NCBI GenBank assembly: GCA_944390795.1
Contig: CALXRI010000001.1
Location: 124,001 to 188,000, forward strand
Direction of reading: 5' to 3'
DNA: 64,000 nucleotides
DNA from: an uncultured Victivallales bacterium
Lineage (GTDB): Bacteria; Verrucomicrobiota; Lentisphaeria; Victivallales; UBA1829
Both the position numbers and the translations under genes were made by a program. Position 1 is the first letter of the stretch, and the number at the start of each line of letters is the position of its first letter. Positions 3,997-51,908 of this stretch are shown piece by piece. Below the pieces are notes generated by a model. It was not told the origin of the DNA. It saw nothing but the letters and a program-made list of their open reading frames with translations, and searched no databases.

Positions 3997-5514
3997 ATGG
4001 GAAAGATCGGTTTTGACAATGCGTTGTATCTTCAGCAGCAGTCTGAGGAAATTCTCAAGCGGGCAGGGCGCTTCGACAACAAGCTTTATCTGGAATTCGG
4101 CGGCAAGCTTGCCTACGATTTTCATGCCGCGCGCATTCTTCCCGGATTCGATCCGAACGTCAAACTTCAGCTTCTCCAGCGTTTGAAAGACAAGATCGAC
4201 GTGGTGATCTGCATCTATTCCGGGGATATCGAGCGGAAAAAAATTCGTGCGGACTTCGGAATTGCCTATGATGCCGATACCCTCCGGATCATTGACAATC
4301 TGCGCGAATGGAATATTTCCGTCAAGGCCGTTGTCGTGACCCGCTACGACGATCATCCCGCGGTCAACAGTTTCATCAACAAGCTTGACCGCCGCGGAAT
4401 CCGGGTTTACAAACATCGTGCAATCAAGGGATATCCTGCGGATGTCGATCTGATTGTCAGCGATGCGGGATACGGCGCCAATGAATATATTGAAAGCGAC
4501 AGGCCGATTGTGATCGTCACCGGTCCCGGTCCGAGCAGCGGAAAAATGGCGACCTGCCTTTCCCAGGTTTATCACGAGCACAGGCGCGGCGTGGCGGCGG
4601 GCTATGCAAAATTTGAAACCTTCCCGGTCTGGAGTCTTCCGCTGAACCATCCCGTCAATATCGCCTACGAGGCGGCGACCGCCGATATCGGCGATATCAA
4701 CATGGTCGATCCCTTCCATCTGGAACACTATCATACGACCACAATCAACTACAACCGCGACATTGAAATTTTTCCCGTTGTGCGGCGTATCTGCGAACGG
4801 ATCATGGGGCCGGAACAGGCCTACAAATCTCCGACGGACATGGGCGTGAACCGTGTCGGATTCGCCATTACCGACGATGCCGTTGTCTGCGAGGCGTCGA
4901 AACAGGAGATCATCCGGCGGTATTTCCGTTATCAGTGTGAATATGCGATCGGCGCGGCGGACCGGAAAACCGTAGACCGCGTCAAAGTTCTGATGGACAA
5001 TCTCGGGCTGCATGACGAGGACCGCCGTGTTGTCGCTCCCGCGCGGGAGGCCGCGCTTGCCGCTGTTTCCACGAAAGGCAAGGGCAATGACGGTTTCTAC
5101 TGCGGCGCCGCGCTGCAGCTTCCTGACGGAACGGTTGTCACCGGAAAGAATTCGCCGCTGATGCACGCGTCTTCCAGCTGCATTCTGAATGCGGTCAAGA
5201 AACTGGCGAAAATTCCGGATCCTGAGATGCTGATCGCACCGGATGTCATCAGTTCGGTCGCGATGCTCAAGCGGAATATTTTGAAAAGCCGCAGAGTCAG
5301 TCTGGATCTTGATGAAACGCTGATTGCGCTGAGCGTGAGCACGACGACCAATCCGATTGCGAAACAGGCGATGAACCAGCTCCGGAAACTTGCCGGATGC
5401 GAAATGCACATCTCCCATCTGCCGACCCCCGGCGATGAGGCCGGTCTCCGGAAGCTGGGGATCAATCTGACCTGCGATCCGAAATTCGCCAGCCGCGACC
5501 TTTTCGTCGACTGA
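3997..5514 (+). CDS. DUF1846 (UPF0371) family protein
   Basis: A 505-residue cytosolic protein matching the DUF1846 family over its whole length, close to the usual size of about 500. Recognisable stretches include the N-terminal YLEFGGKLAYDFHAARILPGF, the nucleotide-binding-like VTGPGPSSGKMATCLSQ near residue 178, and the central HPVNIAYEAATADIGDINM region. Structures of the family show P-loop-like and mixed alpha/beta domains, but the reaction is not established. The ATG follows GGGAG at a short distance. It has its own promoter and stands as a single gene before the convergent glycan operon. Confidence 0.88.
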   Translation: MGKIGFDNALYLQQQSEEILKRAGRFDNKLYLEFGGKLAYDFHAARILPGFDPNVKLQLLQRLKDKIDVVICIYSGDIERKKIRADFGIAYDADTLRIIDNLREWNISVKAVVVTRYDDHPAVNSFINKLDRRGIRVYKHRAIKGYPADVDLIVSDAGYGANEYIESDRPIVIVTGPGPSSGKMATCLSQVYHEHRRGVAAGYAKFETFPVWSLPLNHPVNIAYEAATADIGDINMVDPFHLEHYHTTTINYNRDIEIFPVVRRICERIMGPEQAYKSPTDMGVNRVGFAITDDAVVCEASKQEIIRRYFRYQCEYAIGAADRKTVDRVKVLMDNLGLHDEDRRVVAPAREAALAAVSTKGKGNDGFYCGAALQLPDGTVVTGKNSPLMHASSSCILNAVKKLAKIPDPEMLIAPDVISSVAMLKRNILKSRRVSLDLDETLIALSVSTTTNPIAKQAMNQLRKLAGCEMHISHLPTPGDEAGLRKLGINLTCDPKFASRDLFVD

Positions 5515-47424: not shown

Positions 47425-47500
47425 GAGCTGGTAGCTCAGTCGGTAGAGCATCGCCCTTTTAAGGCGGTGGTCCAGGGTTCGAGCCCCTGCCGGCTCACCA
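47425..47500 (+). tRNA. tRNA-Lys (anticodon TTT)
   Basis: A complete 76-nt cloverleaf: acceptor GAGCTGG pairs with CCGGCTC (one G-U), D arm GCTC/GAGC, anticodon stem TCGCC/GGCGG with loop CTTTTAA (anticodon TTT at 47458-47460), variable loop, T arm CAGGG/CCCTG with TTCGAGC loop, discriminator A and an encoded CCA end. It reads AAA and AAG with U34 modification. Confidence 0.97.
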
Positions 47501-47790: not shown

Positions 47791-49044
47791 CTATTCCGCA
47801 TTCCAATACCGGTCGGCGAAGTCCAGGTAGAATTTCCAGTCTTCCGGCGTGACGTCATGCTCGCCGCTCCGGACATGATAACCGATCTCCCTGCCGATGG
47901 AGACGTCGCGGGGCGGAAGGCTGTCCGGCTGGAATTCCCTGCATTCCGCGCCGAAGAGGCGGTAGACTTCCGCCGCCGAGGCGATGGAAAGATACTCTCC
48001 TCTCGGGTCGGAGTGCAGATCCCCGGCTGCGCTGGCGACATAAAGCGGCCGCGGCGCGATCAGGGCAAGCAGGAAATTCTGATCAAACGGCAAGGTGTTT
48101 TCCCTGTTGCGGTAGCGTTCGAATGCGGAGCTGAACCAGTAATCGCGCCAGAAGAGCAGAAAATCAATGGTTTCGCCGAAAATGTGCCGTGAAAGAGACG
48201 CTCCGCCGCATCCGGATTCATTGGAAATGACCATGGCGAAACGCGGATCGCAGGCGCCCGCCCAGAGCGCCGTTTTCCCGAGACGGGAATGGCCGTGGAC
48301 AGCCGCCTTTTGCGCGTCAATTTCCGTTTCATGCTCCAGGCAGTCCAGGGCGCGTGAAAGTCCCCAGGCCCATGCTCCGATCGCACCGAATTTGTGTTTG
48401 GACTTCCGCAGCGCGTTCTCCGGCAGGAAGAGGCGGTAAATGCTGCTTGCAAATCCTTCGGGGGAATCGTAAAAAATTTCGCTGATGCACAGTGTCGCAG
48501 CGGCATAACCGCGTTCCAGAATTTCCCGGAAGTTCCAGAATTCGCTCTGGACGCCGCGGGTTGATTCATCCGGCGGTTCGGTGGCGAACGCCTCGTGCGT
48601 GCTCCAGTTCACGACCGGTTCCCTGGTGATCCGGATCTCTTTTTCCGGAGTCGCCGCATGATTGCCGCGGCCGTTGAGCCCAAGGAAGACGGGCGCCGGC
48701 GTTTTCCGGTTCTTCGGCAGATAAAGAAGCAGGTCGAAAGCCTTGTGTTTTCCTTCGTTTTCGCAATGAATCCGGATTTCCCGGCGGATCGCAAGGCCGT
48801 CGAACGCCGCCGGATTTTCGGAGAGGAGTTCGAAGCGCATCCGTTCCGGGCGTGGCGGCATCCAGCCGTACATTTCCTCCCGGAACAAACGCAGAATGAC
48901 ATCGCGGCGGAAGTTCATCCACTCAAAAGGCGTCTGAACTGTGCTGCCGTCCGGCATTGTCAGCGGAGAGGGAATTTCGAAAGGAGGCACTCTATCTTCT
49001 TCCGTATTGTAAACTCCGTGATAAGGTCTGTCTGAAATCTTCAT
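47791..49044 (-). CDS. CE15-like (glucuronoyl methylesterase-type) alpha/beta hydrolase
   Basis: A 417-residue alpha/beta hydrolase resembling bacterial CE15 enzymes, which cleave methyl-glucuronoyl esters linking xylan to lignin or occurring in other uronic-acid glycans. The nucleophile elbow is GHSRLGK (S253, R254, K257), followed by SNESGCGGASLSRHIFGET, both CE15 hallmarks; the late His is H396 in SGEHD. There is no signal peptide, unlike most secreted CE15 members, so it may act on imported oligosaccharides. It diverges from an AraC regulator whose site candidate overlaps its promoter. Confidence 0.85.
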   Translation of the reverse strand: MKISDRPYHGVYNTEEDRVPPFEIPSPLTMPDGSTVQTPFEWMNFRRDVILRLFREEMYGWMPPRPERMRFELLSENPAAFDGLAIRREIRIHCENEGKHKAFDLLLYLPKNRKTPAPVFLGLNGRGNHAATPEKEIRITREPVVNWSTHEAFATEPPDESTRGVQSEFWNFREILERGYAAATLCISEIFYDSPEGFASSIYRLFLPENALRKSKHKFGAIGAWAWGLSRALDCLEHETEIDAQKAAVHGHSRLGKTALWAGACDPRFAMVISNESGCGGASLSRHIFGETIDFLLFWRDYWFSSAFERYRNRENTLPFDQNFLLALIAPRPLYVASAAGDLHSDPRGEYLSIASAAEVYRLFGAECREFQPDSLPPRDVSIGREIGYHVRSGEHDVTPEDWKFYLDFADRYWNAE

Positions 49045-49097: not shown

Positions 49098-49138
49098 ACT
49101 ATAGCGGGGGAAATCCGCTTTGAAATGGCAGATATGGG
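49098..49138 (-). promoter_or_regulatory. Esterase promoter with 16-bp regulator element
   Basis: On the minus strand the element CCCATATCTGCCATTT (plus 49123-49138) ends 19 bp before a TATAGT -10 box (plus 49098-49103); the -35 is poor (TTTCAA), as expected for an activated promoter. The same element with the same 19-bp spacing occurs before the gene at 50139. Confidence 0.6.
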
Positions 49139-49179
49139 CTTTTGCTGACATTTATGGTATTTTTTTGAAAGAACCCGTC

Positions 49180-49207
49180 TTGCCATTTCCGTTCCGGACA
49201 TTATATT
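49180..49207 (+). promoter_or_regulatory. Promoter of the AraC-family gene with embedded TGCCATTT
   Basis: TTGCCA (49180-49185), 16-bp spacer, TATATT (49202-49207). The -35 box is part of TGCCATTT (49181-49188), the core of the element found at the two neighbouring promoters, which would allow negative autoregulation. Confidence 0.5.
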
Positions 49208-49238
49208 CTTCGAAAACCGTTGGGAAAGAGGAATGCGA

Positions 49239-50051
49239 ATGGGATATTTCGATGATCTGGAAATCGTCCAGGCAATGCAGAAACTGCATGGTTACCACGT
49301 TTCAAAGCCGATTAATCCGCCTTACTTCAGTCTCTGCCTCCTGCGGAGGGGAGAACTGGTTGTGACAATGGACGGCGCAAGACATCATCTGAAGGCTCCG
49401 TTTATTTTCTGGGCGCTTCCCGGGCATGTGTATCAGTTCCTGTCCGCGGAGGCACGGTTCCGCAAGGAGACGATCTGGCTGGATATGGGAGGTCCCCGGG
49501 CAAGACGGATCAGCAGGGGACTGGCGCAGCTTTCGTCAGCCGGCGGTCTGGGACTGCCTCTCGCCAGCAGCATGGAGATGGCGCTTCTCATGCTCCGGAT
49601 CATCAATTTGAACAGACATGCCTCGGAACAATCCATCCGGCACCGGATTGTGGTTTATGTGGAGGAGCTGATCGGTCTGATTTATGATGCGGCTTTCTGC
49701 GGAGAGACGGGTGTTCCTGCGTGTTTCCCCATTCTGGAAGCGGCGGAGCAGTTCAAAAAATATCCTGCAGTCCGGTATGATCCGGAGGCGCTGGCAGGAA
49801 AGTATGCCATGTCTTACGAAACATTCCGGAAAAAGTTCAGGCGTTATATCGGACAGCCTCCGCATGAGTTTCTGCTCAGCTGCAGAATGAAGCTGGCCGT
49901 TGAACTGATGCGGAGCGGAGAGCGTCCGATCAAGGAGATCGCCGACGCCTGCGGATTTGACGACGCATCCAGTTTCTCCAGAATGTTCCGGAAAAAAAAC
50001 GGGGTCTATCCCAGGGAGTTCCGGAAGAAAATGACGGAAAATATCCGCTGA
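49239..50051 (+). CDS. AraC-family transcriptional regulator
   Basis: A 270-residue regulator. Residues about 1-130 form a cupin-like sensing half (SLCLLRRGELVVTMDGARHHLKAPFIFW); residues about 165-265 form the double helix-turn-helix with PEALAGKYAMSYETFRKKFRRYIGQPPHEFL and IKEIADACGFDDASSFSRMFRKKNGVYPREFR. The ATG at 49239 is preferred over 49233, as AGAGG would be only 1 nt from the latter but 7 nt from the former. It lies between its two likely targets, the CE15-like esterase (divergent) and the TIM-barrel-like protein (downstream). Confidence 0.92.
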   Translation: MGYFDDLEIVQAMQKLHGYHVSKPINPPYFSLCLLRRGELVVTMDGARHHLKAPFIFWALPGHVYQFLSAEARFRKETIWLDMGGPRARRISRGLAQLSSAGGLGLPLASSMEMALLMLRIINLNRHASEQSIRHRIVVYVEELIGLIYDAAFCGETGVPACFPILEAAEQFKKYPAVRYDPEALAGKYAMSYETFRKKFRRYIGQPPHEFLLSCRMKLAVELMRSGERPIKEIADACGFDDASSFSRMFRKKNGVYPREFRKKMTENIR

Positions 50052-50075
50052 ATATCCCGGAAAAATCAACTTTTT

Positions 50076-50116
50076 CCCATTTATGCCATTTATATCGGAC
50101 TCTTTTCCGGTTATCT
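50076..50116 (+). promoter_or_regulatory. Promoter with 16-bp regulator element before the TIM-barrel-like gene
   Basis: CCCATTTATGCCATTT (50076-50091) ends 19 bp before TTATCT (50111-50116). The element contains a direct repeat CCATTTAT at 50077 and 50086. It matches the element in the esterase promoter at 13 of 16 positions with the same spacing. Confidence 0.6.
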
Positions 50117-50138
50117 TAAGGGAAAAAAGGAGAACAGG

Positions 50139-51908
50139 ATGATTTACCGGATCTGGCGTTCCCCCTGGAGCCGCTTCGGCGGAACAACTGCCGAATATCC
50201 CGACGACCGGACGGATGAAACCTTCACCGCTCCGGAGCATTACAGCGATGCGGAGCTTGCCGGTATTGCCGCGGCAGGTTTCAACGGCATCTGGCTTCAT
50301 GCCAGATTCGCCCATATTGTCCGGACGGAGGAATTTCCCGAACTGGGGATTCATGCCGAAGAACATGTCGAGAAACTTTCCGGACTGATCCGGCGTGCGG
50401 AAAAACACGGCATCAAGGTCTTTCTGTACGGTCAGGCGCTGCGTGCCGTTCCGGAATCATACCGCTGCTTCTGGCGCAGCCATGCGGAGTGCGCAGGGCA
50501 GAGGGAGTATCTGACGGAGGAATCGCCTCTGACCGGAGAAAGGCGAAGATATCCGACGGTTTCGCTCTGTTCCTCGGTCCCGGCGGTGAAACGATTCGTG
50601 GAAGAATCCGCCGCGCAGATCGCGGAGAAACTTCCGGATCTGGGAGGTGTCATTCTGATTACCGCGACGGAATTTCCGGGGCATTGCTACCAGCGGCGTC
50701 GGAAAGAGAATCCGAATGCCTGCTATCCCCTTGTGGAATGTCCCCGCTGCCGGGAACGCGAGCCGTGGGAGGTCGCCGCGGAACTGATTGCGCTGTTCCG
50801 GAACGGAATCCGCAGGCATTCCGCAACGATGGCCGTCATCGCATGGAACTGGAGCTGGCAGGGATGGCTGCCCTCTCCGTGCCGCCCTCTGCTGGAACTG
50901 CTGCCGCGCGATGTTGTCGTGATGGCGGATTTCGAGCGCGGCGGCGTGACAGACCTTCCGGAACGTCCGGGATTTGAAATCGACGAATATTCCCTGCTGT
51001 ATCCGGGACCGTCGGAACATTTCCGCAGGACCGCCGCCGTCTGCGGGGAAATCGGACTGCCCTTCATGAGCAAACTGCAGATCGGGGCGACGCACGAACT
51101 CGGAAGCGTCGTATCGATTCCGAATCTTCTCAGCATAAGGGAAAAGGCGCTCTGGCACCGGGCGCACCCGGACACGGGATTCCTCGGGTGCTGGAACTTC
51201 GGCAATTTCCTCAGCGCCAACACGGCGGCCTTTCACCACTTTCTGCATCTCCGGACGCTCTCCGGGGAGGAGGAGGAACTCCGCGCGTTTGCGGAATCGT
51301 ATTTTCCCGGATGCGACAGCCGTCTTGTGTATCATGCCTGGCGTCTGTTCGCCTCGGCAATGCGTCATCTTCCATTCTGCATCGGCCCGCTGTATTACGG
51401 TGTGCAGAGTCATGCGCTTGCATACGACGCGGTCTACCGGCCCGGCCCGCTGGAGAAGACGTATGCCGGATGTTCCTACCTGGAGTCCGCCGTCCGCGGA
51501 GACGATCTTTCTCCCGCCTGTGAAATGCTGCATCACGAATTTTCCCTTCCCGAGCTGATCGGCGCATATGCCAAATGCGCCGCGGTCTGGATGAGCGGCG
51601 TGTTGCTGCTGGAAGCCGGACTGGAAAACTGCGACGACCGACTTGAACTCGGCAATGCGGTAATCTGCGGAATGTGCTGGACCAGCACGGAGAATGCCTT
51701 GCGCGCCTATGCGCTGCGTCTGGAGTGGAATCCCGGGAAAATTCATGAGTTCCGGCATATTGTGAATGCGGAACTGGAGGTGCTCCGGACCGTGCTTCCA
51801 TATGTGGAAAACGATTCGAGACAGGGATTTCATGCGGAGGCCGGCTGCCGTCTCTTTGACCCGGAGAGGATTCGGGCGAAAATCGGGATGCTTGAGCATT
51901 GCATTTGA
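50139..51908 (+). CDS. Predicted TIM-barrel glycoside-hydrolase-like protein, family unknown
   Basis: A 589-residue cytosolic protein with no signal peptide. The N-terminal two thirds look like a (beta/alpha)8 barrel: a strand-helix rhythm with GFNGIWLHARF, AEKHGIKVFLYGQAL, LGGVILITATEFPGHCY, ATMAVIAWNWSWQGW and FMSKLQIGATHELG, where the Thr-Glu near residue 180 and conserved Trp residues suit a glycosidase pocket. The C-terminal part is helical. It lacks a family signature I can name. RBS AAAGGAGAA precedes the ATG. It shares its promoter element with the CE15-like esterase, so both may act on one substrate. Confidence 0.6.
   Translation: MIYRIWRSPWSRFGGTTAEYPDDRTDETFTAPEHYSDAELAGIAAAGFNGIWLHARFAHIVRTEEFPELGIHAEEHVEKLSGLIRRAEKHGIKVFLYGQALRAVPESYRCFWRSHAECAGQREYLTEESPLTGERRRYPTVSLCSSVPAVKRFVEESAAQIAEKLPDLGGVILITATEFPGHCYQRRRKENPNACYPLVECPRCREREPWEVAAELIALFRNGIRRHSATMAVIAWNWSWQGWLPSPCRPLLELLPRDVVVMADFERGGVTDLPERPGFEIDEYSLLYPGPSEHFRRTAAVCGEIGLPFMSKLQIGATHELGSVVSIPNLLSIREKALWHRAHPDTGFLGCWNFGNFLSANTAAFHHFLHLRTLSGEEEELRAFAESYFPGCDSRLVYHAWRLFASAMRHLPFCIGPLYYGVQSHALAYDAVYRPGPLEKTYAGCSYLESAVRGDDLSPACEMLHHEFSLPELIGAYAKCAAVWMSGVLLLEAGLENCDDRLELGNAVICGMCWTSTENALRAYALRLEWNPGKIHEFRHIVNAELEVLRTVLPYVENDSRQGFHAEAGCRLFDPERIRAKIGMLEHCI

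Follow-up and report, generated by a model that had tools for sequence, protein, structure and literature searches.

Within the window, the whole 64,000-nucleotide stretch of DNA analysed here, an AraC-type regulator gene lies between the genes of an esterase and of a barrel protein, and one 16-bp element stands in both enzyme promoters. The locus raises the question of whether the three genes make up one regulon, how far it extends and in which direction the control acts. Judged from sequence, it is very probably an AraC-type activator regulon, larger than first proposed and of a known mechanistic kind. The element is taken, at a probability of about 0.8, for one half of a tandem AraC operator, through which a dimer of the AraC protein of the intervening gene would activate the esterase gene, the barrel gene and a GH20-like operon. 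Directly supported are the anatomy of the operator, its retention beside orthologous genes, its specificity when genomes are searched, and the clustering of the genes in operons.

The window's own genome, G000, has a size of 3.44 Mb in 66 contigs. The related bacteria compared are gut and environmental Lentisphaeria; all genomes are drafts with many contigs, several of those named being MAGs. G002 (95% complete) and G003 belong to the same genus as G000. G003 is the nearest relative used for promoter alignment, and its orthologues at locus G003:C76 are 79% (AraC), 83% (esterase) and 84% (barrel) identical to the window proteins. AraC identity to the window protein is 42% in G010 and 45% in G020.

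Anatomy of the operator

The element, CCCAT-N3-TGCCATTT, is present exactly where the preliminary description placed it, at 49123-49138 (minus strand) and 50076-50091 (plus strand). These are its only exact copies in the 3.44-Mb genome; one-mismatch copies occur at five further places. With up to three mismatches, 25 matches are observed in the window against 18.4 expected, which is no enrichment, so only exact copies are informative. The sequence of the proposed 16-bp site stands, but its extent does not: when the window promoters are aligned with G003:C76, each copy proves to be preceded, at a distance of exactly 20 bp, by a second half-site. This makes the full unit 36 bp long, a tandem operator with a -10 box 19-20 bp further on, of which the element is only the promoter-proximal half.

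In the esterase promoter (minus strand) the upstream half-site is ACCATAAATGTCAGCA at 49143-49158 (ACCGGAAATATCAAAA in G003), 20 bp from the proximal half-site CCCATATCTGCCATTT at 49123-49138, which has drifted to ACCAGTTCTGCTATTT in G003. In the barrel promoter (plus strand) the corresponding half-sites are CCCGGAAAAATCAACT at 50056-50071 (CCCGGGAAAGTCAACT in G003) and CCCATTTATGCCATTT at 50076-50091 (CCCATTTCCGCCATTT in G003). The consensus is mCCrnAAAnrTCA for the upstream and CCAnnnnnGyCATTT for the promoter-proximal half-site. Spacing between half-sites is 20 bp at every cluster promoter compared.

The -10 box of the esterase promoter is TATAGT (49098-49103, minus strand; TATAAT in G003), 19 bp downstream of the proximal half-site. 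An identical spacing of 19 bp had been given for both promoters; it holds for the esterase, but the barrel box had been set one base off. TTATCT, at 19 bp, shares 2 of 6 letters with TATAAT, and TATCTT, at 20 bp (50112-50117, plus strand), shares 4 of 6, TTATCTTA being conserved in G003. Most other operator copies likewise stand 20 bp from the -10 box. The -35 hexamers are poor, with about 3 of 6 matches (ATTTCA for the esterase, about TTTATA for the barrel), and a promoter scan of these two promoters reported no acceptable -35/-10 pair. If the -10 box is set at about -12 to -7, positions near -68 to -53 and -48 to -33 result for the half-sites.

Tandem direct repeats 20 bp apart, the proximal one at a weak -35 region and ending 19-20 bp before the -10 box, are thus found at both promoters; AraC-type proteins usually activate from such a position. 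The poor -35 hexamers fit dependence on an activator, and the position of the operator fits activation without proving it. Half-sites 20 bp, or two helical turns, apart would lie on the same face of the DNA. We infer that the binder is the AraC protein encoded between the targets, and that it would bind the tandem site as a dimer upon sensing an inducer, probably a sugar acid or oligosaccharide. With the proximal half-site extending into the poor -35 region, the protein would be held beside RNA polymerase and would activate the CE15 esterase, the barrel glycosidase and the unlinked GH20-like operon.

Comparable layouts are known from other bacteria. Escherichia coli AraC at araI1-I2 (araBAD) occupies two direct-repeat half-sites about two helical turns apart, the proximal half reaching -35; the window operator is like it in the type of protein, the tandem direct repeats and the proximal half at -35. 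The E. coli half-site, TAGC-N7-TCCATA (PMC4514859), is unlike the CC-N8-TCA and CCA-N5-GyCATTT of the window, where no looping and no CRP site are shown. MtlR of Pseudomonas fluorescens activates sugar genes at PmtlE through two direct-repeat blocks of 15 bp, at -72 to -58 and at -50 to -36, which adjoin -35 on its upstream side (PMC4514859); its blocks are close in position to the window half-sites but differ in their 22-bp period, sequence and substrate. SphR of Pseudomonas aeruginosa governs a small AraC-family regulon of three promoters through two direct-repeat half-sites (PMC3900636). It differs in half-site, ligand and phylum, and is experimentally proved, whereas the window regulon is predicted only. 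Nothing relevant was found in the literature on an AraC operator of Lentisphaeria or on AraC control of CE15.

Since the site extends to the -35 region, polymerase could also be blocked by a protein sitting there, and the operator could be that of a repressor which closes the enzyme promoters until an inducer releases it. This reading is quite improbable, as -35 hexamers of such quality are the usual sign of activator dependence and tandem repeats about two turns apart that end at -35 are an activating AraC-type layout (AraC, MtlR; PMC4514859).

Conservation and specificity

The preliminary description had staked the regulon on finding the element upstream of orthologues in related genomes, and the operator is indeed conserved in G003, G010 and G020. 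The tandem layout with its -10 spacing occurs at the esterase, barrel and GH20-like promoters of G000, at the esterase and barrel promoters of G003 and at the GH20-like promoter of G002. In G010 an apparent operon on one strand (barrel, esterase, GH20-like, prepilin, DUF4838, araC) lies behind the operator TCCAAATATGCCAACAAATGGCCAAAAACACCATTG, which has its TATAGT box at 20 bp. G020 has TCCAGAAATGTCAATAAAAATCCAAAAATGTCATTT with TATAAT at 20 bp ahead of a GH20-like gene, and a second copy, also with TATAAT at 20 bp, ahead of a prepilin-DUF4838-CE15 operon; a GH10 xylanase gene adjoins the araC orthologue of G020. A CE15 gene stands behind the operator in all four genomes with an AraC orthologue and a linked CE15 (G000, G003, G010, G020). 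Just upstream of the barrel paralogues G000:C25 and G003:C190 (57% identical) and the barrel G020:C13 (54%) no such site is present. Prepilin-like proteins (N-methylation motif; DUF1559 in L111) recur within the enzyme operons (L111:4171-4950, L112 about 4270-5050, L139:5612-6514).

A regulon of both enzymes, as first described, holds as to joint control, probably by activation, and is incomplete, at least one third operon (GH20-like, contig C13) belonging to it. A pattern search of G000 returned three zero-mismatch tandem sites, all at cluster promoters. The third, G000:C13:75998-76031, has TATAAT at 20 bp, lies upstream of the GH20-like gene and was left out when the pattern was defined. Orthologues of this gene are 87% (G002), 76% (G003), 50% (G010) and 46% (G020) identical. 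It directly follows the esterase gene in G003 and is unlinked but operator-bearing in G000. In the window that place is taken by a tRNA-Lys gene (47425-47500, directly downstream of the esterase), which indicates that the cluster was rearranged. A tandem site with one mismatch, CCGCAAAAGTCAACTTCAGGCCATTTCTTCCATG, occurs at G000:C13:76204-76237 (plus strand; L125/L139), some 200 bp upstream of the GH20-like operator and oriented the other way. No evident -10 box or gene start accompanies it; it may be a distal operator or what is left of a barrel-type promoter.

Across 36 genomes of the family, the zero-mismatch pattern occurs at eight places: the six that define it, the GH20-like site and one inside an ORF of G006. 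Matches at G006:C155 and G000:C37 were rejected as operators, both lying inside ORFs and lacking a clear -10 box where one would be expected. Restricted to CATTT plus TATAAT or TATAGT, the pattern matches only G020:C71 and the window esterase promoter among 137 genomes of the order, both belonging to the training set; the reversed pattern with the -10 box has zero matches in the same 137 genomes. When fetched loci totalling 1.96 Mb are scanned with a profile that gives no weight to the linker, cluster promoters score 26-40 and the best reversed-sequence control 15.5. Most sites served to define the pattern and are not countable as independent matches; independent support comes from the GH20-like sites of G000 and G002, the second G020 site and the controls.

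A chance origin of the site was rejected on the whole-genome, reversed-pattern and reversed-sequence controls. That the match arose by accident in AT-rich promoter DNA, or was left behind by a duplication, is barely credible. The esterase and GH20-like operators of G000 are very alike, as a duplicated promoter could explain, but three genera keep the site, each time with the same genes, the same spacing and the -10 box, and the controls are far lower or empty.

The regulator gene and its paralogues

The proposed activator (49233-50051, plus strand) has 272 aa. It possesses the AraC DNA-binding domain with two helix-turn-helix motifs (Pfam HTH_18 5.5e-22, residues 187-265; HTH_AraC 2.7e-11) and an N-terminal ligand-binding and dimerisation domain (AraC_binding, PF02311, 1.8e-5, above the gathering score). 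The recognition helices SYxxFRKKF and FSRMFRK/R are retained in G003, G010 and G020. A genome_contigs search with this protein gave no match.

The preliminary description had one protein activate both enzymes and repress its own gene through TGCCATTT in the araC -35 box. Autorepression is common among AraC-type systems, and TGCCATTT is present within the araC -35 region, at 49181-49188 (plus strand). It overlaps the -35 box TTGCCA (49180-49185, plus strand; 5 of 6 matches), which lies 16 bp from the -10 box TATATT (49202-49207, plus strand; conserved in G003). Repression through it is nevertheless highly improbable: the half-site stands alone, there being no second one 20 bp upstream, and an element here would leave 13 bp to the -10 box, against 19-20 bp elsewhere. 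The G003 promoter reads AATCATCTTGCCATTC, in which TTGCCAT is kept and the CC half is lost, as constraint on a -35 box alone would predict. An operator overlapping the regulator's own promoter was thus not found, and TGCCATTT is best read there as a -35 box.

Control of the operator by the window regulator has also to be weighed against cross-talk, in which several AraC paralogues of the same subfamily would read the site and the genes would share a response without forming a one-regulator regulon. In G002 the operator is kept at the GH20-like gene (G002:C18:12607-12640; L171:7608), and no orthologue of the window AraC, esterase or barrel was found in this 95% complete genome; a paralogue may bind there, or the regulator was lost or missed. 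Some paralogues have similar recognition helices (SYSGFRKFFK and FSSFSRLFR, as in L009/L182), L009 adjoins a related tandem site (TCAAAACAGTCA / TCATTTCAGCCATT), and related sites lie near other AraC genes (G020:C23, G003:C246). Against this, exact tandem sites in G000 occur at the three cluster promoters only, despite at least 62 AraC-like matches, and the half-sites of other paralogues clearly diverge. Cross-talk is accordingly regarded as unlikely, if well worth keeping in view, and a regulon of the window AraC is preferred.

The genomes of the family contain very many AraC-type matches each (often at least 62), with 20-21-bp tandem repeats in some divergent promoters. The regions upstream of 56 other AraC homologues were scanned, with no motif given, for direct repeats of 14 bp that are followed in the divergent direction, after 20-21 bp, by a -10-like box. 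Of 22 periods tested, 20 and 21 gave the highest means (2.11 and 2.71), with eight loci above threshold at each and 0-3 at the others; the effect is moderate and pertains to these 56 loci. Half-sites differ between paralogues (CCTAATTTTGCAT and TTCGTTTTGTGCA, for example). A related tandem site is conserved beside a different AraC-type gene at G003:C246:5213 (GCAGAAAAATCCATTTATTTGCCATTTAATCTATTT, TATAAT at 20 bp) and at G000:C9:5197, the latter ahead of a Gfo/Idh-like gene.

Enzymes, pathway and wider promoter plan

The first target (47791-49044, minus strand; 417 aa) is, from its sequence, a CE15 glucuronoyl esterase (Pfam PF22244, E 2.9e-35). It aligns with OtCE15A (PDB 6syr, E 1.4e-96) over the full catalytic domain, with the Ser, Glu and His positions conserved in GHSRLGK (S253), SNES (E276) and EHDVT (H396); the activity is predicted.

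The second target (50139-51908, plus strand; 589 aa) is a predicted glycosidase, characterized by a structure model (pLDDT 90.0, pTM 0.90) and Foldseek. The model resembles 6hze (GH138, 2.4e-10), 2vca (GH89, 2.3e-9), 1gql (GH67, 2.2e-8) and 7pxq (GH115, 9.8e-6), and also GH20 structures. The overall fold is common to the GH138, GH89, GH67 and GH115 enzymes, at about 11% identity and a TM-score of at most 0.54 over the query. The protein had been called unclassified. This stands at the level of family profiles, there being no significant Pfam, NCBIfam or PDB sequence match and no membership of GH67, GH115 or GH138, but the modelled fold can be placed among GH138/GH89/GH67/GH115-type glycosidases. 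E178, E266 and E320, candidates for catalytic residues, are invariant among 22 homologues. The closest homologues come from Lentisphaeria MAGs, and distant ones from Armatimonadota, Planctomycetota, Spirochaetes and Clostridia.

GH67 and GH115 contain alpha-glucuronidases, and a role of the barrel protein beside a glucuronoyl esterase is therefore reasonable. The proposed link of the two enzymes in one pathway gains support from G010, where their genes share the apparent operon, and on the modelled fold it is plausible. The substrate, we infer, is a glucuronate-bearing plant polysaccharide such as glucuronoxylan.

The switch is probably a new example of a well-known kind, in which one regulator would switch on a few enzymes that digest plant sugars. 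More tentatively, at somewhat less than even odds, the AraC expansion of Lentisphaeria (tens per genome) may consist of paralogous activators that all work on a single fixed promoter plan, in which half-sites spaced by 20-21 bp are followed after about 20 bp by the -10 box, the half-site letters diverging as the paralogues split. The window regulon would be one readable case, including an unclassified glycosidase family, that of the barrel protein, acting with CE15 on glucuronate side chains. For bacteria whose regulation has hardly been studied, the switch itself offers a defined operator together with a predicted regulator and its targets, and the code that ties dozens of AraC paralogues to their sites becomes testable. 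The tie between an unclassified glycosidase-like family and glucuronoyl esterases suggests substrates to assay.
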